Shown: positions 41,732 to 57,937, numbered from the stretch's first letter. The stretch: 64,000 nucleotides of DNA from Merismopedia glauca CCAP 1448/3 (GCF_003003775.1 NZ_PVWJ01000003.1:1-64000); one strand, 5' to 3'. Translations and numbers: made by a program. Notes: generated from the letters alone by a model not told the origin.

Positions 41732-42016
41732 AACCATACAGAAAGTTGTTAAATAAAATTAATTTAACAAATCATATTTTTGAGATTATTTGGGATTTAT
41801 TGGCGTTTATCTGCGGAAATAGACGCTAACGTTTCCAGTATAAAATGTATTTGTCATACACCGTAAAAGTATTTTAGTAACAGGTATTTAGAAAATCTAA
41901 ATCAATTTAGCCACTATATTAACTCTTTACTCTTTACTCTTTACTCAGTAGGGTACGTCCTGCGGTAGCCTAGATCGAGTGACTTATAATAGCAAAATTA
42001 GAATTGCGATCGCTTT

Positions 42017-42988
42017 ATGTCTCCTGAAGTTTCTGCTCCCACTCGGACAATTAGAATCGGTTCTCGGAAAAGCCAATTAGCCTTAGTACAAACTTATTGG
42101 GTAAGAGAAGAACTCCAAAAGGCGTTTCCCGACATCACCTTTGAAGTACAGACGATGAATACCCAAGGAGATAAAATTCTGGATGTCGCCTTGTCAAAAA
42201 TTGGTGATAAAGGCTTATTTACTCAAGAATTAGAGACAGGGATGCTCAATCATGAGGTTGACTTTGCCGTTCACTCCCTCAAAGATTTACCTACTAACTT
42301 ACCCTCTGGTTTAATGTTAGGGTGCGTCACCGAAAGAGAGAACCCTGCTGATGGTTTGGTGGTACACGAAAAGCACAAAGATAAGCAACTAGATACCCTT
42401 CAGGAAGGTGCAGTAATTGGTACATCCTCTTTAAGACGCTTAGCGCAACTGCGTCATCACTTCCCGCACCTGACATTTAAAGATATCCGAGGTAACCTCA
42501 ATACTCGTTTGGCAAAATTAGACGCAGGGGAATACGATGCCATAATCTTAGCTGTAGCAGGGCTAAAACGGCTAGACATGAGCGATCGCATCCATCAAGT
42601 CATCCCTGATGAACTATCTCTACACGCCGTCGGACAAGGGGCTTTAGGCATTGAATGCCGCAGTGAAGATCCAGAAGTCCTCAAGGTAATTAAAGCCTTA
42701 GAACACTTACCTACAGCCCAAAGATGCTACGCCGAACGCGCTTTCTTAAGAGAATTAGAAGGTGGCTGTCAAGTCCCCATTGGGGTTAATACTAAGATTG
42801 ACGGAGATAACCTGACTTTAACAGGGTTAGTTGCTAGTTTAGACGGCAAACGCTTGATTAAAGATAGTATCATCGGTGCTGCCACTGCCGCCGATGAATT
42901 AGGGATTGAACTAGCGCACAAAGTTAAAGAACAAGGGGCGCAAGAAATCTTGCAGGAAATCATTGAAGAGATGCGGACTGATAGTTGA
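42017..42988 (+). CDS. hemC: Porphobilinogen deaminase
   Basis: Hydroxymethylbilane synthase polymerises four porphobilinogens in haem and chlorophyll synthesis. The 323-residue protein has [64 protein letters not shown] and [11 protein letters not shown]. Cys251 in the last motif is the dipyrromethane cofactor attachment site. All catalytic Arg and Asp residues are visible. The gene lies about 700 bp upstream of chlL but is separated from it by the four-hairpin element, so both belong to tetrapyrrole synthesis without evidence of a shared message. Confidence 0.95.
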
Positions 42989-43681
42989 ATCCGTTAAAAC
43001 TCTTGTGGGGTATTACCCTGAGCCTGTCGAATGACGGGCATCTTGCCATCAGCGTCAACTTAACGGTGAAAGCTTTACTCCGCCGCGAACTCAAGTTCAC
43101 GGCTCATAGCTCAAGTCCACTCAAGTGGACTAAAACTATTCCTGAGTCCTCTGAAGAGGACTTTAGCTATGAGACAGGGGTTTTCAACCCCTAGCGGTTG
43201 TGGTTCAAAGCCATAGTCCAGCAATCATTTGAGCCTTAAATTGACACCTATGGCATCTTGCCCGCTTTTTTGTTTCCCAATTCCCGATTCCCAATCCCCA
43301 ATTCCTAATTGAAAAATTCATCATTATTTACAAAGCCTAACTGTAAGTAAATTAGGTACTGTTACTGGACTAGATATTACCTATCTACACCAGTGACTCA
43401 AGCACATTAAGCTGTTCCAGATTTGACTTACCGATCCAAAATCTGCATCTAGAACCTCAAACCCATATTAAATATGACTTCTGACTTCTGTACAGACGCG
43501 ATATATTGCGTCTCTCCTAACTTCTGACTTTTTTTGCTATTGTTTACATTTTTATAAAAAGCGATCAAATAGGGTTTCCTTTTGCTGACGATTTGGACAA
43601 TAATCTGAGGTAACCAAAAAAAAGATATTAAACACCGCAAGCTAAGAAGTTTAATAACAGCACCATTGGAGGCAGTTAAAA
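42989..43681. other. Repeat-filled spacer between hemC and chlL
   Basis: The spacer contains the four-hairpin element (43036-43263), a CCCAATTCCC-type simple repeat near 43275-43310, and a partial palindrome between CAGAAGT heptamers near 43484-43530. No gene was recognised. Confidence 0.6.
43036..43263 (-). mobile_element. Four-hairpin MITE, copy 2 (228 bp, inverted relative to copy 1)
   Basis: It has the same ends (GGGCATCTTGCCA at left, GGCATCTTGCCC at right) and the same series of hairpins, in opposite orientation: GTGAACTTGAGTTCAC-like, GTCCACTCAAGTGGAC, GTCCTCTGAAGAGGAC and GGGGTTTTCAACCCC. Loop bases differ while stems are preserved, for example AAGAG/CTCTT arms with changed centres. 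Confidence 0.85.
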
Positions 43682-44545: not shown

Positions 44546-44612
44546 ATTTGGTTGTCCGATTTTGGGAAAAATAGGTAATGAATATCTATTTTTCCCGATA
44601 TGGAGGACAATT

Positions 44613-46411
<1,799 letters not shown>

Positions 46412-46485
46412 TTATCTCTCTGAAACTCTAAATATCTTCAAAATGTTGTGGGGTAGGCATCTTGCCTGCCCCTATTGTATTTTAG

Positions 46486-46954: not shown

Positions 46955-48292
46955 ATGAAAAAGCTATCACCTCAATTGGCGCATCAAAGGCAGAAAATGC
47001 GCTCGACGCATCCCGGCGATCGCTTCAACCTCCATTTAGGGCAATCCCTTTGGTTGGACAAACAGCAACTGCCACCTCTATGCGATAAATTCCAGCTATC
47101 AACCAGCCACAAGTTAAGAATTGCTGTTTATTCGCACGATACGATGGGATTAGGGCATAAACGCCGTAATTTACTGATTAGCCAAACACTGGGGGCTTCA
47201 GCTTTAGATGCAGACATTCTCATGATTAGTGGGATGTCAGAAGCCAATAATTTTTCCATGTTTCCTGGGGTAGATTGTTTGACCTTGCCAGCACTCCACA
47301 AAAACAGCAACGGAGAGTATAGATCTCGCCGTTTGGATATTTCCATTAGCGAAATCATCAATTTGCGATCGCAAGTCATTCGCACCACCGTCGAAAGTTT
47401 CACCCCAGATGTATTGATTGTGGATAACGTACCGCGCGGGGTGATGGGGGAACTAGATTCAACCTTGGAATACTTGCACGATCGCGGGCAAACCTATTGT
47501 ATTTTGGGCTTGCGAGATATATTAGACGAACCTAGTGCCGTTAGGCTAGATTGGCAGCGTCGCCACAACGACCTAGTGATCCAAGATTATTACGATGCCG
47601 TTTGGGTGTATGGCGATCCTAGCGTCTACGACTCGGTTAAAGAATATAACTTTGCCCCAGAGACAAATGCCAAGCTGCATTACATGGGATATCTAGATCA
47701 AACTGCCCGTTTAAAGTTTGTCGAGGCAGCCAGCAAACGGGCGCTAGAGAGCCTTAATCTACCTTCAGAGCGTTTAATTCTCTGTTCTGTTGGCGGTGGA
47801 CAAGATGGAGCAGAATTAGCAGAAGTTTTTGCTAAAACTAAATTTCCATCTCATACCTATGGGGTTCTGTTAACGGGTCCTTTTATGCCCCCAGCAGTTC
47901 GCCAGCGCTTGCAAGAACAGGCAGACAGGCGTTTGGACTTGTCTGTACTAGAATATTTTCCCGAACCTACCTTGCTGATAGAACGGGCAGATCGGGTGAT
48001 TGCGATGGGTGGATACAATACTACTTGTGAAATCCTCTCATTCCAAAAGCAAGCCCTCATCGTCCCCCGTATCAAACCGAGAAAAGAACAACTGGTGCGC
48101 GCCGAACGCTTGCAAGCTATGGGACTTGTAGATATGTTACATCCCGATCGCCTCAGTGTCGAGACATTGAGTGGGTGGTTAAAACAACCCGATAAATTAC
48201 CCAAGGCACGCGATCGCGTCAATCTTGATGGTTTAACTCGCATCCCCGAATTTTTAGCCCAAAATATTGCCGTCACTCATTCATATATTTAA
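46955..48292 (+). CDS. Glycosyltransferase, GT28/MurG-like (COG4671)
   Basis: The 445-residue soluble protein has two Rossmann-like halves (GT-B fold). The N-terminal half begins after about 55 residues with RIAVYSHDTMGLGHKRRNLL, the glycine-rich acceptor loop, and includes PDVLIVDNVPRGVMGEL. The C-terminal half has LILCSVGGGQDGAELAEVF and the donor-binding region AMGGYNTTCEILSFQKQALI with PRIKPRKEQLVRAERL. The family is predicted to transfer sugars from nucleotide donors. The acceptor is unknown. It is the first gene of a tight same-strand run of two more glycosyltransferases, an ABC exporter and an APH-fold kinase. Confidence 0.85.
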   Translation: MKKLSPQLAHQRQKMRSTHPGDRFNLHLGQSLWLDKQQLPPLCDKFQLSTSHKLRIAVYSHDTMGLGHKRRNLLISQTLGASALDADILMISGMSEANNFSMFPGVDCLTLPALHKNSNGEYRSRRLDISISEIINLRSQVIRTTVESFTPDVLIVDNVPRGVMGELDSTLEYLHDRGQTYCILGLRDILDEPSAVRLDWQRRHNDLVIQDYYDAVWVYGDPSVYDSVKEYNFAPETNAKLHYMGYLDQTARLKFVEAASKRALESLNLPSERLILCSVGGGQDGAELAEVFAKTKFPSHTYGVLLTGPFMPPAVRQRLQEQADRRLDLSVLEYFPEPTLLIERADRVIAMGGYNTTCEILSFQKQALIVPRIKPRKEQLVRAERLQAMGLVDMLHPDRLSVETLSGWLKQPDKLPKARDRVNLDGLTRIPEFLAQNIAVTHSYI

Positions 48293-48301
48293 TTTCAGAA
48301 A

Positions 48302-49573
48302 ATGTTGCTTTCCCAATCGCCACGTGTTGGCTACGTTCTCAAACGCTATCCCCGGTATTCAGAAACCTTTATCGTCAACGAAATCTTAGCCCATGAAGCT
48401 CAAGGGCTGAAAATCGAGATATTTGCCCTGCGTCCTCCTGAAGATACCCATTTTCAAAACATTATTTCCCAGGTTCGCGCTAGAGTGCATTACATTCGCA
48501 AACCCGTCCAAGGACGTACAAGCGAGTTTCTCACCAGTTTAGCGCCTACCGCAGCCAGCTATTTTTGGGCAGAGTTACAAGAAGCCAGTCAATTAATTCC
48601 CGATCTTTGGGCAAAGTTAAGTGTAGCCCAGGGAGAGAGAGCCAGCACGGTCTATCAAGCTCTTTGGCTGGCACGGGAAATTAAACTCCAAAATATTACC
48701 CATCTTCACGCTCATTTTGGCACTGTAGCTACCAGCGTGGCTCGTTTGGCTGCTCACTTTACAGGGATTCCCTATACCTTTACCGCTCATGCTAAAGATA
48801 TCTTTCATGAAAGTGTAGATAAGCAAGATCTGACTGGCAAACTCAGCGATGCTGCTACTGTTGTCACCGTCAGCGATTATAACCTGAGATATCTGCAAGC
48901 TAATTACGGTATTGCAGCTAACCGAGTGCGGCGGATTTACAACGGTTTGGATTTATCTCAATTGAGCTACAAATCACCTCTAAATCGTACCCCCTTAATT
49001 CTGTTTGTCGGTCGTTTAATCGAGAAAAAAGGCGGGTTAATTTTAATAGAAGCTTGCGCTCAACTCAGAGATTGGGATTGCGAATTTCACTGTCAGATTA
49101 TCGGTACGGGTTCTTGCCAAAGACAGCTAATAGAGCGAATTAAAGAGTTAAATTTAGGCTTGCAGGTGGAAATAGTGGGTCCTCGCCCGCAAAATGAAGT
49201 ATTTGCAGCACTTCAGCAAGCAGCAGCGTTTGCGGCTCCTTATGTAGTCGGTACGGATGGCAATCGTGATGGTTTGCCAACGGTACTACTAGAGGCAATG
49301 GCTTTGGGAACTCCTTGCGTGGCGACTGATGTCACGGGAATTCCCGAAATCGTGCGGGATGGAGAGACTGGTTTATTAGTGCCGCAACACGATGTTAAGG
49401 CTCTAGCGATCGCTCTTAAACAACTGTTAAACAACGGCACTCAACGAGAACAATTGGCGCGAGAGGCAAGAAAACTGATTGAGGAAGCGTTTGACATTCA
49501 CTGCAATAGTGCCGTATTGCGATCGCTCTTCCAACCGATCTCAACGACGCAAAAAGTTCTTCAGGAGGTGTAA
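48302..49573 (+). CDS. Glycosyltransferase family 4 protein
   Basis: The 423-residue GT-B enzyme begins RVGYVLKRYPRYSETFIVNE, typical of the WcaL/AmsK/CpsE-like subgroup. It has HLHAHFGTVATSVARLAAHF, TFTAHAKDIFHESVDKQDL, LILFVGRLIEKKGGLILIEA, PYVVGTDGNRDGLPTVLLEA and ALGTPCVATDVTGIPEIV. The nucleotide-sugar site, Glu in LLEAMALG and the second Glu in IPEIV seven residues on, is in place. It probably adds a hexose to a polysaccharide or lipid-linked glycan in the cytoplasm. The gene starts 10 bp after the COG4671 gene and is followed by the next glycosyltransferase after 3 bp. Confidence 0.88.
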   Translation: MLLSQSPRVGYVLKRYPRYSETFIVNEILAHEAQGLKIEIFALRPPEDTHFQNIISQVRARVHYIRKPVQGRTSEFLTSLAPTAASYFWAELQEASQLIPDLWAKLSVAQGERASTVYQALWLAREIKLQNITHLHAHFGTVATSVARLAAHFTGIPYTFTAHAKDIFHESVDKQDLTGKLSDAATVVTVSDYNLRYLQANYGIAANRVRRIYNGLDLSQLSYKSPLNRTPLILFVGRLIEKKGGLILIEACAQLRDWDCEFHCQIIGTGSCQRQLIERIKELNLGLQVEIVGPRPQNEVFAALQQAAAFAAPYVVGTDGNRDGLPTVLLEAMALGTPCVATDVTGIPEIVRDGETGLLVPQHDVKALAIALKQLLNNGTQREQLAREARKLIEEAFDIHCNSAVLRSLFQPISTTQKVLQEV

Positions 49574-49576
49574 TTT

Positions 49577-50749
49577 ATGCGAATTGCTTATATTTGTGCC
49601 GATCCTGGCATTCCTGTCTTCGGTCAAAAAGGATGCTCGATCCACGTTCAAGAAATCTTGCGATCGCTCCAAAATTTGGGGCATCAGGTAGTTTTGTTTG
49701 CTACTCGTTTGGGAGATAAGCCGCCAGCAGATTTAGCCAATATTCCCGTTTGCCTTTTACCTCCCATTCCTAAAGGAGAAAGAGCAATTCGCGAACAAGT
49801 TGCCCTCGCCGTTAACCCAGATTTACGCCTAGAACTGGAACTAGCTGGTAATTTTGACTTAATCTACGAACGCTATTCCTTGTGGAGCTATAGCGGCATG
49901 GAATACGCTAAAGAACAGGGAATTACCGGGATCTTAGAAGTTAATGCCCCTTTAATTGAAGAACAGTTACAACATCGAGGTTTGGTAGATCGGGAAGCGG
50001 CTCAAAGGGTGGCTCGGAGAGTCTTTCATGCTGCCAGTCAGATTGTGGCGGTTTCGAGAACTATTAAAGATTATTTGACCAAATACGTGAGTGGGCAAAA
50101 AGTTCACGCCATCGGTAATGGAGTCAATCGCGATCGCTTTGCCCTACCTCTAATTCCGTCTTTTGCCAATCCTCCCAAAACTTTTGTCGTCGGATTTGTG
50201 GGCAGCTTAAAACCCTGGCATGGATTGTCTAATTTAACCGATGCTTTTGCCCACCTGCATCAAAAAGTACCATCAGCACGACTTTTAATTGTAGGAAATG
50301 GACCGGAACAAGGAAAAATCGCAGCAGATTTATGTTTGCGGGAATTAGACTCGGCGGCTCATTTTACTGGTGCCGTCAGCCCCACCGAAATACCTGGATT
50401 ATTGGCTTCAATGAGCGTAGCAGTAGCTCCGTATCCAGAGCGCCCCGATTTTTACTTCTCTCCTTTAAAAGTCTACGAATACATGGCAGCAGGATTGCCT
50501 GTCGTTACCAGTCGCATCGGACAACTAGCTGAATTTATTGAAGATGGGGTCAACGGAATGCTTTGCCCTCCTGGGGATGTGGTGGCGCTGGCAGAGGCTT
50601 TAGAGGAATTGTGGCGATCGCCCGAACTCCGCCAGCAGATGGGTAATGCGGCTCGTCATACCGTCTTAGAAAATCATACTTGGGATGCGATCGCCGCACG
50701 GATCTTAGCCTTGGCGAATGAGTCTCGGCTCGTCGGAGGTTGTAGATGA
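49577..50749 (+). CDS. Glycosyltransferase family 4 protein
   Basis: The 390-residue GT-B enzyme has the acceptor-side motif FGQKGCSIHVQEILRSLQNL at the N-terminus, NFDLIYERYSLWSYSGMEYA, and a donor domain with FVVGFVGSLKPWHGLSNLTD, ARLLIVGNGPEQGKI, TEIPGLLASMSVAVAPYPER and FSPLKVYEYMAAGLPVVTSR. The Glu in VYEYMAAG and the following hydrophobic pair match family 4. AGGAGG lies 8 bases before the ATG. The 3' end overlaps the ABC exporter start by four bases (ATGA), so the two are translated together. The exact sugar is unknown. Confidence 0.88.
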   Translation: MRIAYICADPGIPVFGQKGCSIHVQEILRSLQNLGHQVVLFATRLGDKPPADLANIPVCLLPPIPKGERAIREQVALAVNPDLRLELELAGNFDLIYERYSLWSYSGMEYAKEQGITGILEVNAPLIEEQLQHRGLVDREAAQRVARRVFHAASQIVAVSRTIKDYLTKYVSGQKVHAIGNGVNRDRFALPLIPSFANPPKTFVVGFVGSLKPWHGLSNLTDAFAHLHQKVPSARLLIVGNGPEQGKIAADLCLRELDSAAHFTGAVSPTEIPGLLASMSVAVAPYPERPDFYFSPLKVYEYMAAGLPVVTSRIGQLAEFIEDGVNGMLCPPGDVVALAEALEELWRSPELRQQMGNAARHTVLENHTWDAIAARILALANESRLVGGCR

Positions 50750-52584
50750 CATCGAGTAAATCTCTGTCCAAATCAGTTCCTGGGATCTGGAATATATTAG
50801 TTTATTTTAGTCCCTACATTCGCAAACAGCATAATTTATTGTTCTTGAGTGCCATCGCTTTAGTTTTTGATGTCTTACTGCGGGTTCTCGAACCTTGGCC
50901 CCTCAAGTTCGTATTTGACTACGTGCTGATTCGCGATCGCCAACCTCCTGTATTGCCCTGGGTAGGCACTCTAGAACCCGTGTGGCTGCTGACGTGCTGT
51001 GCCCTAATCGCGATCGCAATTCCAGCTTTGCGGGCGGTGGCGGCTTACTGGAATACGGTGTGGCTGGCTTTGGTAGGGAGTCGGGTGATCGGGGAGGTGC
51101 GGGAAAAGTTGTATCGCCACCTGCAACAGTTGTCTCTGGCTTATCACCATCAAGCCAGAAGTGGGGATTTGATTGTCAGGGTTAGTAGTGATGCTAGCAG
51201 GCTGCAAGAAATCTTACTAACCGCCGCTTTACCTTTATTAGTCAGCATCTTGACTCTATTTGGGATGTTGGCGGTCATGTTCTGGATGGATCGAGATCTG
51301 ACTTTGCTTTCCTTATTGATGCTGCCTTGGTTTGGGTTAGTTGCCAGTCGTTTGAGCGATCGCATTCGGGAATCTTCTCTCAAACAGCGCAAGCAAGAAG
51401 GGGCGGTGGCGGCTACTGCGGCGGAGTCGATAGCGGCGATTAAACTGGTTAAAGCCCTTTCCCTGCAAGAAGCCTTCGCCCAGGTTTTTGCTACCCAAAA
51501 TCAACGCAGTCTCAAAGAAAGCGTTCAAACTCAGCAACTAGCTTCTAATTTAGAGCGTACTGTCGATGTAGTTATTGCGATCGGGACAGCTATAGTCCTG
51601 TGGTACGGCTCCTGGCTGGCGCTGCGAGATGCCTTAACCCCTGGGGACGTGCTGGTATTTCTGACTTATCTCAAAAATGCTTTTAAACCCGTCCAGAATT
51701 TCGCTAAATATACGGGCAGATTAGCCAAGGCTGCGGCTTCGGGAGAGCGGATTTTGGATGTTTTAGCCGAAATTCCTGACGTAAGAGATTTACCTGGGGC
51801 GATCGTAGCTCCTTGTTTGCGGGGTGAGGTGGAATTTGATGGGGTTAGTTTCGGGTACGAACCGGAGCGAATGCTGTTAGAGAATATAAATTTAAAGGTG
51901 CAATCGGGGCAGCAAATTGCGATTGTGGGAGGTTCTGGCGGGGGTAAATCTACTCTAGTCAGCTTAATTTTGCGCCTTTACGACCCAATTTCCGGTTCAG
52001 TGAAGATTGATGGCAGGGATATTAGGGAGTACACGTTGGATTCGGTGCGATCGCAAATTAGCGTTGTTTTGCAAGAAAGTTTATTATTTGCTGCTACTAT
52101 TCGCGAAAATATTGCTTACGGGGTGGCTGATGTGAGGGAAGCCGAGATTGTGGCTGCGGCTGAACTGGCTAACGCTCATGAGTTTATTGCAGCAATGCCT
52201 CAAGGTTACGATACGGTGGTGGGGGAGAGGGGTGCGACTCTTTCGGGGGGACAGAGACAAAGAATTGCGATCGCTCGTGCTGCGATTCGCCAAACGCCGA
52301 TTCTGATTCTGGATGAGCCTACTACTGGCTTAGATAAAGGTAGCGAACAAATTATTATTGAAGCTTTGCAAAGACTCGCCCAAAACCGCACTACTTTTGT
52401 GATTACTCACGATCTTTATTTAGCTACCCGCAGCGATGCGATTGTTTATATAGAAGGGGGGGAAATTAAAGAAAGAGGAAGTCATGCAGAGTTGATGAGT
52501 GATAACGGTCGTTATGCAGATCTTTATCGCATACAAGCAGCGCAGGGAGAGAAACAGGCTGCGAGTACTCGATCGAAGCTTTAA
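50746..52584 (+). CDS. ABC exporter (fused membrane and ATPase domains)
   Basis: The 612-residue protein has a six-helix membrane domain (about 25-320) with LSLAYHHQARSGDLIVRVSS, which matches the type IV exporter fold of MsbA/LmrA relatives. An ATPase domain follows from about 350: Walker A GGSGGGKST, signature TLSGGQRQRIAIARA, Walker B PILILDEPTTGLDKG and the H-loop ITHDL. It works as a homodimer. Lipid-linked glycans, glycolipids and peptides are typical substrates. The glycosyltransferase gene overlaps its start by four bases, so a glycoconjugate cargo is the simplest inference, but this is not shown. The protein lacks any peptidase domain. Confidence 0.9.
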   Translation: MTSSKSLSKSVPGIWNILVYFSPYIRKQHNLLFLSAIALVFDVLLRVLEPWPLKFVFDYVLIRDRQPPVLPWVGTLEPVWLLTCCALIAIAIPALRAVAAYWNTVWLALVGSRVIGEVREKLYRHLQQLSLAYHHQARSGDLIVRVSSDASRLQEILLTAALPLLVSILTLFGMLAVMFWMDRDLTLLSLLMLPWFGLVASRLSDRIRESSLKQRKQEGAVAATAAESIAAIKLVKALSLQEAFAQVFATQNQRSLKESVQTQQLASNLERTVDVVIAIGTAIVLWYGSWLALRDALTPGDVLVFLTYLKNAFKPVQNFAKYTGRLAKAAASGERILDVLAEIPDVRDLPGAIVAPCLRGEVEFDGVSFGYEPERMLLENINLKVQSGQQIAIVGGSGGGKSTLVSLILRLYDPISGSVKIDGRDIREYTLDSVRSQISVVLQESLLFAATIRENIAYGVADVREAEIVAAAELANAHEFIAAMPQGYDTVVGERGATLSGGQRQRIAIARAAIRQTPILILDEPTTGLDKGSEQIIIEALQRLAQNRTTFVITHDLYLATRSDAIVYIEGGEIKERGSHAELMSDNGRYADLYRIQAAQGEKQAASTRSKL

Positions 52585-52726
52585 GTAACGAGTAACGAGT
52601 CAAATTAAATTATTGTATTCAATTTTTGCCGTGATTAATACTAATATTTCTATTCAAGATAGAACCAGATTTTTTGCAATAAGAGTCATTAAAGCCTATT
52701 CAGAACTTAACTAAAGAAACTTTGAT

Positions 52727-53743
52727 ATGGTTCTACTATCAAACATTATCGTTAGCGATCCTTTTAACAGTAGCGCCGATCCGAAGATGCCTTTCCTAGC
52801 AGAAGCGATCGCTCCGATGCAGGTGCAAAGGTACTTGGCTCAAGCTTTGGGCGATCGGCTTGAGGGGATCGAACTTCAAGGAATTCAGGTCATGCGCCAC
52901 AAAATGGGACGACGTTGTGGGATTGCTTACAATATTAAGGCTAGAAAGTCTGATTCATCTAAATATATGGCTATTATTGGCAAAGTTAGGGCTAAAGGAC
53001 TCGATTACCCCAGCTACGAACTCCAGCGATCGCTCTGGAATGCAGGATTTGGCGATCGTAGTTCAGATGGAATTTCTGTTCCTGAAGTGCTGGGTGCGAT
53101 TCCTAGATGGGAAATGTGGTTGCAGACAAAAATCCCTGGAAGCGTTGCTACCGATTTATTGGCTGGGGCGGATGGCGTGGCTTTAGCGATTAAAATAGCT
53201 GAATCAGCCCATAAACTTCATCAAGGTGGTTTTGTACCCCATCGCTGCCACACAATGACTGATGAACTCAAGATTTTGCGCGATCGCCTACCCAAGGTAG
53301 GGCAAGTATATCCCAATTGGGCAAAGAGAATTGCAGTAATTTTAGACAAGTGCGATCGCCTCGGTGCCAAAACTCCAGAATTCGAGCCTTGCGGGATTCA
53401 CAGGGATTTCTATGGCGATCAAGTTATTGTCAATGGCGATCGCCTTTACCTAATCGATCTCGATCTTTACTGTCTTGGGAATCCTGCTTTAGATATCGGC
53501 AATTTTATCGCCCATATCACCGAATACAGTCTGCGAGTTTTGGGAAATCCCGATGCTTTAAGCGATCGCGAATCTGCAATGACAGAAAGATTCGTGGAGT
53601 TTCACGGTGCGGGGATGCGCTTGGCAATAGAATCTTACACAACGTTGACTTTAGTACGACATATTTACATCAGCACCCAAATCAGCGATCGCCGTCCTTT
53701 TACTAAAGCGCTGCTAGAACTTTGCGAACAGCGTTTGAGTTAA
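52727..53743 (+). CDS. APH-fold phosphotransferase
   Basis: The 338-residue protein has an aminoglycoside-phosphotransferase/choline-kinase fold. The N-terminal lobe includes KYMAIIGKVRAKG, and the catalytic core is PCGIHRDFYGDQVIVNGDRL followed by LYLIDLDLYCLGNPALDIGN. HRDFYGDQ carries the catalytic Asp, and IDLD the metal-binding Asp, so it looks active. Relatives phosphorylate sugars, choline-like head groups and amino alcohols. In this setting, phosphorylation of a glycan or lipid head group is plausible but unproven. The gene starts 142 bp after the exporter and the next gene begins 17 bp beyond its stop. Confidence 0.8.
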   Translation: MVLLSNIIVSDPFNSSADPKMPFLAEAIAPMQVQRYLAQALGDRLEGIELQGIQVMRHKMGRRCGIAYNIKARKSDSSKYMAIIGKVRAKGLDYPSYELQRSLWNAGFGDRSSDGISVPEVLGAIPRWEMWLQTKIPGSVATDLLAGADGVALAIKIAESAHKLHQGGFVPHRCHTMTDELKILRDRLPKVGQVYPNWAKRIAVILDKCDRLGAKTPEFEPCGIHRDFYGDQVIVNGDRLYLIDLDLYCLGNPALDIGNFIAHITEYSLRVLGNPDALSDRESAMTERFVEFHGAGMRLAIESYTTLTLVRHIYISTQISDRRPFTKALLELCEQRLS

Positions 53744-53760
53744 TTAAAGAGAGATCGGCA

Positions 53761-55296
53761 GTGAAAAAATCCGGTAAAAACCATTTAAAAGCTATTTTTA
53801 GGTTTAAAGTCTCTCAAAAAATGGCGATAGCGCTGTTTTTATGGCTAAGTAATTCCTTTCCAGCTAGCGCATCTGTTAGTAAAGATGATTTAATGTTTCA
53901 AATTCCCTCAGTTTCCGAATTTTCAGACGTGCATCCTCATGATTGGGAATTTACAGCTTTAAAATCCTTAGTGAAGCAGTATGAGTGTGGTGGCGATCGC
54001 TTTTACCGAATGCTGACTCGCTCGGAATTTGCAGTCAAGTTTCATGCTTGTTGGCAGGAAATGCAACATTTGGGCGCAGGGATAGATGGAGATACTTTAA
54101 CCACAATCCAACGACTGCGATCTGATTTTGCTGCGGAATTAAGCGCTTTACCGAGACAAATAAAGCAAGTGGAAACTAGAGTCGATAGTTTAGAGAACCA
54201 GCAATTCTCACCTCGCGTTGAACTCGAAGGAGAAGTTATCTTCGCACCCATCGCGACGAGTGGCGGCAAAAAAGCTGATGGTAGTGGAGAATCCATAGAC
54301 AAAAGTGTTTTTTTGGGGAATGGTGCTAGTTTTAATTTTAAAACAAGCTTTACAGGCAAAGATAGCTTAAAAATTAGCCTAGAATCGACTCAAATTCCAG
54401 AATTAGAAGAACTAACGGGTACGCGGATGTCTAATTTAGGATTTGATGGGGATGATGAAGGACAATTGGTACTTGATGAAGTAGAATATCAATTTCCTCT
54501 CAGCGAAAGAACTAGAGTCACCATTAATTCTGAAGGTGGGGGTTTGGGCGATTACGTGCCTACAGTTAGTCCTTGGTTGAGCGGTAGCGAGGATGGTTCG
54601 ATTTCGACTTTTGGTAAAGAAAATCCGATTCGGCGGCAAGGATCGGGGGCTGGCATTGGTATATCGTATAAATTCAGCGATGCCGTGAATCTTTCAATAG
54701 GATACGTGGCGGCTAAGCCCAACAAACCAGAAGGAGGCTTATTTTCGACTCCTAATGCCGCGATCGCTCAATTGACCCTCAATCCGTCTAAATCTATAGC
54801 TTTGAGCTTGACTTACACCAATTCTCACAATAGTTTCAGAACTGGAACTGGTAGCGAATTGACGAACAATCCCTTTAACGATACCTCAGAAGCAATCGCG
54901 GCTACAGGCTATGGTGCAGAAGCAACTGTATCCCTTACTCCTAAGTTTCACATTGGTGGACGCATCGGTTATTTGCAAGCAATTGCTGAAGATTTGAGCG
55001 ATCGCCCCCAGGCAAATATTTTCACTTGGTCAGCTTTTTTAGCCCTGGAAGATGAGGGTAAAAAAGGTAATTTATTCGGCTTAATCTTCGGTCAGCCCCC
55101 AAAAGTCGTCAATAATAACTTTGGAGCAGACTTTCAAGACCGAGATACTTCTTTGCATCTAGAAGCTTTCTATCGCTGGCAAATCAATCGGAATGTAGGG
55201 ATTACTCCTGGCATATTTTTGATTACTAATCCTGAGCATAATCGCAATAACGACAGTATTTTCGTCGGTAGTGTCCGCACTACTTTTACCTTTTAG
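53761..55296 (+). CDS. Outer-membrane porin of the cyanobacterial SLH/OprB type
   Basis: The 511-residue protein has a Sec signal (hydrophobic MAIALFLWLSNSFPAS, cleavage plausibly after SAS). A partial SLH-like domain follows (SEFSDVHPHDWEFTALKSLV through MLTRSEFAVKFHAC), then a coiled-coil segment (about 105-150) and a beta-barrel of amphipathic strands ending with VRTTFTF, a C-terminal aromatic typical of outer-membrane proteins. Cyanobacterial members such as SomA/SomB are porins that anchor the outer membrane to peptidoglycan. GTG 53761 is chosen because the upstream TTG lies within the previous gene. It may be co-transcribed with the kinase gene. Confidence 0.85.
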   Translation: MKKSGKNHLKAIFRFKVSQKMAIALFLWLSNSFPASASVSKDDLMFQIPSVSEFSDVHPHDWEFTALKSLVKQYECGGDRFYRMLTRSEFAVKFHACWQEMQHLGAGIDGDTLTTIQRLRSDFAAELSALPRQIKQVETRVDSLENQQFSPRVELEGEVIFAPIATSGGKKADGSGESIDKSVFLGNGASFNFKTSFTGKDSLKISLESTQIPELEELTGTRMSNLGFDGDDEGQLVLDEVEYQFPLSERTRVTINSEGGGLGDYVPTVSPWLSGSEDGSISTFGKENPIRRQGSGAGIGISYKFSDAVNLSIGYVAAKPNKPEGGLFSTPNAAIAQLTLNPSKSIALSLTYTNSHNSFRTGTGSELTNNPFNDTSEAIAATGYGAEATVSLTPKFHIGGRIGYLQAIAEDLSDRPQANIFTWSAFLALEDEGKKGNLFGLIFGQPPKVVNNNFGADFQDRDTSLHLEAFYRWQINRNVGITPGIFLITNPEHNRNNDSIFVGSVRTTFTF

Positions 55297-55351: not shown

Positions 55352-56646
55352 CTGAGTGCCTGACAGAAGTAGGTGAAACCCAATAAACACAAGAGAATTG
55401 GCGAAGAGGGTAGAGAGACATGAGAGGCTAGAGTTACCACACAACAGCCAAAAACCATGACAACCTCCACCCATTTGTATGGTCAACTATTCGACCAATT
55501 GAGTCAACACAGTCGCATTTGCGATCTGCGCCACTTGAAAGCCTTGGCATGGATGGTGAGTGCCTTGCTCTACAGCGGAGAATTGAACCTGGCGGTATGG
55601 GAGCCTTACGTGCTGAGTCGAGCGACGAAAGCGCAAAGCACCGAGCGGCGCTGGCAGCGATTTATGGACAACTGCCGCATCAACGTGATGGCGATTTACT
55701 TACCGTTGGTGCTGGTGGCTCTGAGTGGATGGAAGCAACAGCGATTGTATTTAGCCTTAGATACGACAGTTTTGTGGGAGCGCTTTTGCATGATTCACCT
55801 GTCGGTGGTGTGCTGTGGGCGGGCTGTTCCCTTATTGTGGCGAGTCCTCGAACATGGCAGTGCCACCGTTGCCTTTGAGGAGTACCAACCCGTATTGCGC
55901 CGTGCTCGGTGGCTGCTGCGGCATCACCCCGATGTAATGTTATTAGCCGACCGAGGCTTTGCCAATCATGAATTGATGAAATGGTTACGGCAGAGCCACT
56001 GGCATTACTGTTTGCGATTACCGTGTGATGTCTCGATCCATACTACACGACGCTATCCCTTGATCCCCCCTTGGTGAAGCCCGACTGTATGAGAATGTGG
56101 GCTTGTGGCTTGATGGTGAGCATCGCTGTAACTTGGTGGTGGCAACTGTACAGGGAGCCAAAGAATCTTGGGCAGTTGTCACTGATGAACCTCCGAGTTT
56201 GCAGACGCTCTGGCAATATGCCTTGAGATTTCGGGTCGAAGAATTATTCTTGGATAGCAAATCTGGGGCATTTGAGTTAGAAGACTCGCGCTTGCGCTCG
56301 GCTGCTGCCCTCGAACGCCTTTACCTGGTCGCTGCCATTGCTCTGCTGTTTGCCACCACCCAAGGCATGGCGGTGCAACTGGCAGGCTTGCGGCAACAAG
56401 TAGACCCGCATTGGCGACGTGGCATTAGCTATCTCAAAATCGGACTTCGCTGGCTGCCAGGGGTGATGCATAAAGGAAGAACCTTGCTGCCTTGTGTTCC
56501 GTTGTTACCTCACGATCCTCAAGCTTGTTTCGCCTCCCTCAAGGCGAAGCGCGACTACGATGACCACATTTGGTTTCATCGAGTTCGTTCCATCGTTTGT
56601 AAACCTAGTTCTACCGCCAATTAGAAAAGATCTGTCAGGCAGTCAG
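55352..56646 (+). mobile_element. IS4-family insertion sequence, 1295 bp
   Basis: The left end CTGAGTGCCTGACAGA (55352-55367) and the complement of the right end (56631-56646) match at 15 of 16 positions. A 10-bp target duplication flanks the element. It contains one DDE transposase gene, frameshifted. It inserted between the porin gene and the glycosyltransferase gene at 56735. Confidence 0.93.
55457..56624 (+). pseudogene. IS4-type DDE transposase, frameshifted
   Basis: The first frame (55457-56077, 206 codons) has catalytic Asp in YLALDTTVLWERF and Asp in MLLADRGFANHELMK. The second frame (from about 56066 to 56624) reads GEARLYENVGLWLDGEHRCN and holds the Glu in RFRVEELFLDSKSGAFELED, the third catalytic residue. 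The shift of one base falls at a run of six C at about 56064-56069. Removing one C restores continuous reading. The element could use programmed frameshifting, could be inactivated, or the run could be a sequencing error. Everything else looks intact, and no internal stop occurs elsewhere. Confidence 0.85.
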
Positions 56647-56734: not shown

Positions 56735-57937
56735 ATGAAAATCGCCTATTTAATGAATATTCACCCTTACGCTAGTTGTACCTTCATTCGTAGGGAAATA
56801 GTGGCGATTGAAGCTAGCGGAATTCCTGTCTCAAGGTTTGCCATTCGTCCTCCAGAAAACGACTTAGTAGACGAAGCCGATAAACAAGAGGTTGGTAAAA
56901 CCAGATACATTTTAGGAGTAGGAATAGTCGGTTTGCTGAAAAGTTTAATTACTATAGCATTAACTCGACCAATTCACTTTTTTAAAACTCTCAAATTCAT
57001 CATTAAAATAGGTTTATCTGCGGAAAAAGGCATACTATTCAACCTCATTTATTTCTTAGAAGCTTGCGTACTTTTTCAATGGGTAACCGAAGCAGAAATC
57101 GACCACATCCACGTTCATTTTGGCACTAATTCAGCTACCGTAGCGATGCTATCTCGGCTTCTGGGAGGACCTACATACAGCTTCACTGTACACGGTCCTG
57201 AAGAATTTGATAAACCCCAAGCTTTGTGTTTAAAAGAAAAGATAGAAAATGCTAGTTTAGTTATTGGAGTTTCTTCTTTTGGTAAAAGCCAGCTATTCCG
57301 TTGGTGTGGATATAAACACTGGTCAAAAATTCACGTAGTTCATTGTGGTTTAGACGAGATGTTTTTATCGCAATCTTATGTTCCTTTACCACACGAACCT
57401 CGGTTTGTTTGCATTGGTCGATTAAGCGAACAAAAGGGACATTTATTATTAGTTGAAGCCGTCAGTCAGCTAGCATCTGAAGGTTTAAAATTTAAAGTAA
57501 TTTTAGTAGGAGATGGTTATTTAAGAGAACAAATTGAATTTTTAATTGAAACGTTGGGTTTGAAAGATTATATTGAAATTACTGGTTGGGCAACTAATTT
57601 AGAAGTCAGACAGCAAATTTTAAACTCTCAAGTAATGGTTATACCAAGTTTTGCGGAAGGCTTACCAGTAGTAATTATGGAAGCTTTTGCCCTTTCTCGC
57701 CCTGTTATTAGCACTCATATTGCCGGAATTCCAGAATTAGTTAAAACCCGAAAATCTGGTTGGTTAGTTACACCTGGATCGTCGGAAGCTTTAGCTTCAG
57801 CTATGCGAGAAGCCATACATTTACCATTAGCAGAATTAGCTCAAATGGGAAAAACGGGTGCGGAAGCTGTGGCAAAAGAGCATAATATTAACCATGAAGC
57901 TCAGAAGTTAGTTAAACTATTTCAAACATATTCTTAA
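56735..57937 (+). CDS. Glycosyltransferase family 4 protein (WcaL-like)
   Basis: The 400-residue GT-B enzyme starts MKIAYLMNIHPYASCTFIRR, the WcaL-type acceptor motif. It has HIHVHFGTNSATVAMLSRLL, YSFTVHGPEEFDKPQALCLK, FVCIGRLSEQKGHLLLVEAV and VMVIPSFAEGLPVVIMEAFA, followed by RPVISTHIAGIPELV. Both nucleotide-site Glu residues (FAEGLPVVIMEAFA) are present. WcaL acts in colanic acid synthesis, and the acceptor here is unknown. The insertion sequence separates it from the upstream glycan cluster by about 1.4 kb. Before that insertion the gene may have been part of the same region. Confidence 0.88.
   Translation: MKIAYLMNIHPYASCTFIRREIVAIEASGIPVSRFAIRPPENDLVDEADKQEVGKTRYILGVGIVGLLKSLITIALTRPIHFFKTLKFIIKIGLSAEKGILFNLIYFLEACVLFQWVTEAEIDHIHVHFGTNSATVAMLSRLLGGPTYSFTVHGPEEFDKPQALCLKEKIENASLVIGVSSFGKSQLFRWCGYKHWSKIHVVHCGLDEMFLSQSYVPLPHEPRFVCIGRLSEQKGHLLLVEAVSQLASEGLKFKVILVGDGYLREQIEFLIETLGLKDYIEITGWATNLEVRQQILNSQVMVIPSFAEGLPVVIMEAFALSRPVISTHIAGIPELVKTRKSGWLVTPGSSEALASAMREAIHLPLAELAQMGKTGAEAVAKEHNINHEAQKLVKLFQTYS

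Follow-up and report, generated by a model that had tools for sequence, protein, structure and literature searches.

Within a 64,000-nucleotide stretch of the genome of Merismopedia glauca CCAP 1448/3 (GCF_003003775.1, NZ_PVWJ01000003.1:1-64000; hereafter the window), five consecutive genes at positions 46955-53743 probably represent one unit of a widespread system for glycan synthesis and export, by which a fixed phosphorylated oligosaccharide or glycolipid would be exported. The gene content, folds, order and co-occurrence were observed, and the chemistry is read from the protein families. The five genes, P1 to P5, encode three glycosyltransferases, an ABC exporter and an APH-fold kinase (KB), and are here called the cassette.

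Gene order and distribution

The cassette is defined as P1-P2-P3-P4-KB in this order on one strand, with an optional second kinase, KA, between P4 and P5. The window carries this arrangement without KA:

46955..48292, + strand, 445 aa: P1, predicted GT-B fold glycosyltransferase with GT28/MurG-like donor domain (Pfam, profile search, AlphaFold2 model)
48302..49573, + strand, 423 aa: P2, family 4 glycosyltransferase, Glyco_transf_4 and Glycos_transf_1 (Pfam, NCBIfam)
49577..50749, + strand, 390 aa: P3, second family 4 glycosyltransferase, Glyco_transf_4 and Glycos_transf_1 (Pfam, NCBIfam)
50746..52584, + strand, 612 aa: P4, exporter of MsbA/ABCB type with transmembrane and nucleotide-binding domains in one chain, ABC_membrane and ABC_tran (Pfam, motifs)
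52727..53743, + strand, 338 aa: P5 (KB), APH-fold kinase (Pfam APH, AlphaFold2 model, conserved residues)

Calling of open reading frames (ORFs) reproduced exactly the five same-strand genes given in a first-pass annotation, with spacers of 9 bp (P1-P2) and 3 bp (P2-P3), a 4-bp overlap of P3 and P4, and 142 bp between P4 and P5. Pfam and NCBIfam domains bore out its two family 4 glycosyltransferases, MsbA-type exporter and APH-fold kinase followed by a porin, and the third glycosyltransferase and the operon-like character of the block were supported as well. The product that it had proposed, a small glycoconjugate on which the kinase would act, is kept here as a proposal. Domains of Wzx, Wzy and phosphoglycosyl transferases were not found in the five genes or in the flanking genes scanned, the rest of the genome lying outside this search; the annotation had likewise listed no Wzx or Wzy.

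A search with P1 in 84,980 GTDB genomes gave 80 loci. In 45 of the 48 cyanobacterial loci P1-P2-P3-P4 kept their order on a single strand, and P5 followed in all 41 where it could be placed (the contig being clearly long enough in 39), which is the conservation of GT28-like/GT4/GT4/MsbA-type exporter/APH kinase that the first-pass annotation had proposed to look for. Of 244 cyanobacterial genomes in a second draw, which overlapped the first in part, the same 18 held orthologues of P1 (E below 1e-130) and of P5 (E below 1e-36), and no others did (Fisher p 1.3e-27). The order was kept in 15 of the 17 genomes other than that of the window; it was split in one (L100) and rearranged in one (L102:2776-12345), where KB now lies 5' of P1 and KA is left between P4 and the porin. 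The distribution is patchy, at about 7% of the sampled cyanobacteria.

The cassette is not specific to cyanobacteria, as it was also found in Rhodobacterales, Actinobacillus, other gammaproteobacteria and Phycisphaerales and on plasmids of E. coli. P5 orthologues were present in 6 of 321 sampled gammaproteobacteria (about 2%), and a true P1 orthologue in 1 of 289 sampled alphaproteobacteria, that one being the query genome itself, and in 1 to 2 of 248 genomes of the class of the Phycisphaerales genome, in which the cluster is split over two contigs. Among 5,426 complete E. coli genomes, an eight-gene form (GT28-GT4-GT4-ABC-KA-KB-Alginate_exp-Ugd) was carried on plasmids of 18 and on no chromosome, with plasmid copies at least 99% identical. 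The order is thus kept across phyla, so that the clustering is not due to chance, and this conservation shows that the genes work together.

On plasmid p1RM9088 (NZ_CP042296.1; L119:14001-24179) the cassette lies beside F4-like fimbrial genes and an S6 peptidase gene; its products are absent from the main text of the paper on the carrier strain RM9088 (PMC10562709). Carriage by phages was rejected, P5 having no match in phage records.

Proteins of the cassette

P1 matches Pfam Glyco_tran_28_C (30 bits) and, by profile, MurG (1f0k, E 1e-7). Its AlphaFold2 model (pLDDT 86, residues 1-49 forming a low-confidence tail) has a GT-B fold with GT1-type matches in the PDB, the closest being the natural-product glycosyltransferases OleD and CalG, and the glutamate E359 of its GGYNTTCE motif is invariant. 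Pfam and the fold model together indicate a GT-B, GT28/GT1-like enzyme. P2 is EpsE/WcaL-like, under both NCBIfam model cut-offs, and is 46-52% identical to the second gene of the proteobacterial clusters. P2, P3 and P4 gave dozens of weak NCBIfam matches, and every equivalog model near P2, P3, P4 or P5 scored well below its cut-off.

P4 combines ABC_membrane and ABC_tran in one protein and is not a separate ABC-2 permease and ATPase of the Wzm/Wzt kind. Its nucleotide-binding motifs are intact (Walker A GGSGGGKS, LSGGQ, LDEPT). The best NCBIfam score was for MsbA (TIGR02203, 426.5 bits, equivalog cut-off 602); lower scores were obtained with HepA (NF045513, 391 against 725), the NdvA/ChvA models (NF010178, 334 against 733; TIGR01192, 258 against 585) and PglK (180 against 1000). 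As P4 scores near HepA, secretion and multidrug exporters and under every equivalog cut-off, its substrate class cannot be read from the protein.

P5 belongs to the APH/choline kinase superfamily by its Pfam APH match, its AlphaFold2 fold (pLDDT 95.9), and its catalytic Asp, Mg-binding residues and DxD. It carries the catalytic motifs HRDFYxDQ and DLDLY, and H225, D227, Q232, D244, D246 and K86 show no variation among 30 sequences from cyanobacteria, which makes it unlikely that P5 is a pseudokinase and agrees with the earlier description of an APH-fold kinase. The closest PDB folds were LxmK (the best, 9dk3, TM 0.60), the 4-hydroxytryptamine kinase PsiK, choline kinase, methylthioribose kinase and aminoglycoside kinases (APH); the score with the LxmK model NF038156 was 30.7 bits, below the cut-off of 315. 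In the HRDxxxxQ stretch of P5, Q replaces the N that is usual in the Brenner motif of APHs. Mycobacterial maltokinase has Q at the same position, which is a lead and not a test.

Accessory genes

The unit is larger than the first-pass annotation reported, comprising also KA, an outer membrane barrel, a two-component pair and the UDP-glucose dehydrogenase (Ugd) of relatives.

KA is a second APH-type kinase, whose gene separates those of P4 and P5 in, among others, Gloeocapsopsis, Thermosynechococcus and Petrachloros. KA and KB are fused in Rhodobacterales, in Actinobacillus and in some further gammaproteobacteria, in the first two as one protein of about 730-770 aa, of which the N half matches KA and the C half P5 (P5 gave 182 bits with the C half of the Actinobacillus protein and 38 with the N half). 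By these matches the N half is the orthologue of KA and the C half that of P5. On a quick tree of P1-P4, with long branches, both the proteobacterial outgroup and the basal clade of cyanobacteria carry KA, and its presence or absence changes twice in total. KA was not found in the window genome, where the search returned P5 alone, and weakly; a copy hidden elsewhere in that genome was rejected on this result, and KA has been lost in the window's lineage. In Phycisphaerales (L108:278-2470) KB is fused to a C-terminal Sulfotransfer_3 domain, which hints at a carbohydrate substrate for KB.

An OprB/SomB porin follows P5 in 24 of the 38 cyanobacterial loci with room for it, so that the porin noted directly after the kinase in the window belongs to the unit as a recurrent member. 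The gammaproteobacterial clusters end with an Alginate_exp barrel, and one genome has a Porin_4 gene upstream instead. That barrels from different Pfam families accompany one cluster suggests that an outer membrane channel is needed by the cassette and is exchangeable.

A pair of an OmpR-type regulator and a HAMP/HisKA sensor adjoins the cassette in 23 of the 48 cyanobacterial loci (strict count), and also in Rhodobacterales. Three placements were seen: divergent upstream, co-directional upstream, and downstream. The nearest pair in the window genome lies on another contig (C11, L106), and in 6 of the 8 genomes with a strong match the best match of its sensor is the cluster-linked one; it is likely the window organism's counterpart. 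We infer that the pair controls expression of the cassette. Ugd adjoins the 3' side of the cassette in the E. coli plasmids and in Actinobacillus, which hints at glucuronic acid as one sugar, and the product probably contains a uronic acid. In the survey of neighbourhoods of relatives, only the regulators and the porin recurred as gene families beside the cassette.

The porin and the edges of the block in the window are as follows:

53722..55296, + strand: OprB/SomB-type outer membrane porin ORF (OprB 158 bits, NCBIfam por_somb 413 bits)
46450..46472, + strand: terminator-like stem-loop 3' of the upstream chlN/bchN gene, left edge of the block (terminator scan)
55267..55284, + strand: terminator-like stem-loop at the end of the porin ORF, right edge of the block (terminator scan)

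The real start of the porin is likely the ATG at about 53821, ahead of a signal-peptide-like stretch. No terminator-like site was detected in the intergenic gaps from P1 to P5, that between P4 and P5 included. The scan is weak, with fewer sites in the real sequence than in shuffles, and because it does no better than shuffled sequence the pattern of sites can be taken only as consistent with one transcript.

Directly after the porin, two consecutive ORFs (55457-56624), the first with a DDE_Tnp_1 match, resemble a broken insertion sequence, past which lies a further GT4 glycosyltransferase gene, EpsE-like (56735-57937). This gene and the oxidoreductase genes downstream were rejected as parts of the cassette, as they do not recur beside relatives. 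On the other side, a DUF5331 protein gene (44562-45017) lies between chlL and chlN and overlaps chlN by 4 bp.

Sister clusters

Related clusters of the COG4671 type in alphaproteobacteria and Nostoc share P1-like and GT4 genes with the cassette, their P1 being 35-40% identical. They differ from it in having no KB kinase, and in ten alphaproteobacterial loci examined no P4-type exporter was adjacent; the widespread alphaproteobacterial P1-like genes were therefore rejected as cassette members and form a sister group without KB or P4. The Nostoc clusters have in addition a related exporter, 50-56% identical to P4, and a UDP-glucose dehydrogenase upstream. At L064:8231-17265, and at Nostoc loci like it, UDP-glucose dehydrogenase is accompanied by two P1-like genes, a GT4, a GT2 and an exporter, and KB is missing. 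In three loci (L012, L041, L052) a set related to the sister cluster adjoins the cassette itself. In one genome the gene of a sensor kinase related to the cassette's regulator stands directly before a sister P1 gene (G005:C45:39574-41058 and 41999-43147), so that the sister cluster may share the link with a two-component system.

Discussion

In the reading that we favour, three cytoplasmic glycosyltransferases, one GT28-like and two of family 4, would assemble an oligosaccharide whose composition is fixed and which may be carried on a lipid; KB alone, or KA and KB, would phosphorylate it from ATP. A P4 homodimer would then move the glycan across the inner membrane, and the outer membrane barrel would let it out or take part at the outer membrane. 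In other members glucuronic acid may be one of the sugars, as suggested by their UDP-glucose dehydrogenase, and the OmpR-type sensor/regulator pair would set expression in many hosts. The window organism has lost KA and likely keeps its regulator pair on another contig. The gene set is near-fixed, and the loci read contain no inserted genes for further glycosyltransferases, which points to one conserved product rather than a variable antigen. A more far-reaching version, held tentatively and at somewhat less than even chance, is a cross-phylum secretion pathway for one conserved phosphorylated acidic oligosaccharide, sulfated too in some hosts. Such a pathway would combine a fixed trio of glycosyltransferases with one or two APH-fold kinases dedicated to glycans, an exporter of MsbA type in the place of Wzx or Wzm/Wzt, an outer membrane barrel that can be exchanged, and a two-component switch of its own.

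Several points weigh against this reading. The block has no initiating phosphoglycosyl transferase that would point to an acceptor. The uronic acid is deduced from distant relatives alone. The barrel is not adjacent in the Rhodobacterales clusters and in about a third of the cyanobacterial ones, which makes its role less than certain, and, since KA can be lost, a second phosphate cannot be required in every host. Choline, small molecules and peptides are likewise substrates of APH-fold kinases.

The same genes could instead make a lipid that stays in the envelope: P1 would glycosylate a membrane lipid, P2 and P3 extend it, KB phosphorylate the head group, and P4 flip it as MsbA flips lipid A, the porin being a mere neighbour. 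P4 is indeed nearest to the MsbA equivalog model and the donor domain of P1 is MurG-like, both of these relatives acting on lipid-linked substrates, and the Rhodobacterales clusters manage without an adjacent barrel. However, P4 is also close to HepA, secretion and multidrug exporters, under every equivalog cut-off, and the recurrence of barrels of unrelated families argues for release through the outer membrane; we regard such a flippase as unlikely. Far less probable is a cluster for a glycosylated natural product with self-protection, in which the APH kinase inactivates or matures the product and P4 exports it. The folds closest to P1 (OleD, CalG) and P5 (LxmK and APHs) and the resemblance of P4 to multidrug exporters would fit, but polyketide synthase, non-ribosomal peptide synthetase and precursor peptide genes are lacking in the block, only regulators and porin recur beside it, P5 falls far short of the LxmK cut-off, and a fixed set across distant phyla would be unusual for antibiotics. 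GT4 enzymes and ABC exporters are abundant families, and loose or chance clustering of such genes could be imagined; it is refuted by the order in every testable cyanobacterial locus and in other phyla and by the perfect co-occurrence of P1 and P5, which leave it next to no probability.

Comparison with known systems gave partial likenesses to the exporter and glycan synthesis system that we favour. MsbA, the lipid A flippase, is like P4 a one-chain exporter of the homodimer type, but P4 scores below its cut-off, is encoded with glycosyltransferases and kinases, and is nearly as close to HepA and secretion exporters. The cyclic glucan exporter ChvA/NdvA and the oligosaccharide flippase PglK are single-polypeptide ABC exporters of a glycan or lipid-linked oligosaccharide, whereas their defining synthase or pgl genes are absent from the cassette. 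The heterocyst HepA polysaccharide exporter region also groups a cyanobacterial ABC exporter with glycosyltransferases; the cassette differs in occurring outside cyanobacteria and in carrying APH kinases. Alginate-type, synthase-dependent export through the AlgE barrel resembles the gammaproteobacterial and E. coli plasmid members in the Alginate_exp barrel and, for the E. coli plasmids, in Ugd, but the cassette has no membrane-embedded processive synthase, uses an ABC protein at the inner membrane, and has an OprB/SomB barrel in cyanobacteria. LxmK, the class V lanthipeptide kinase, shares fold and catalytic loop with P5, which differs in having Q for the Brenner-motif N, and no lanthipeptide partner genes recur beside the cassette.

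No description of the cassette was found in open-access papers and family libraries, in agreement with the first-pass annotation, which knew of no named cyanobacterial system with this gene order. Synechocystis sll1722-sll1725, considered as a possible counterpart, was not supported by the literature found; Rubrivivax EmbRS, a two-component system controlling polysaccharide clusters, proved different; and the capsule, teichoic-acid and E. coli plasmid literature gave no match. A defence system was also rejected, as PADLOC had no match for P1, P2, P3, P5 and KA and generic ATPase matches only for P4. Judged from its genes, the cassette appears to be a system for making and exporting a glycan from an unusual set of parts, apparently undescribed in the open-access literature.

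In loci for surface or exported glycans, the glycosyltransferases usually differ between strains. The cassette keeps its three glycosyltransferases, exporter and kinase in the same order in cyanobacteria, in proteobacteria and in a planctomycete, and is also found on conjugative E. coli plasmids; this conserved set implies selection for one particular molecule. The cassette offers a well-defined set of genes for deletion. If its kinases do phosphorylate an exported glycan, the pathway would join dedicated glycan kinases, an ABC exporter and interchangeable outer membrane barrels.

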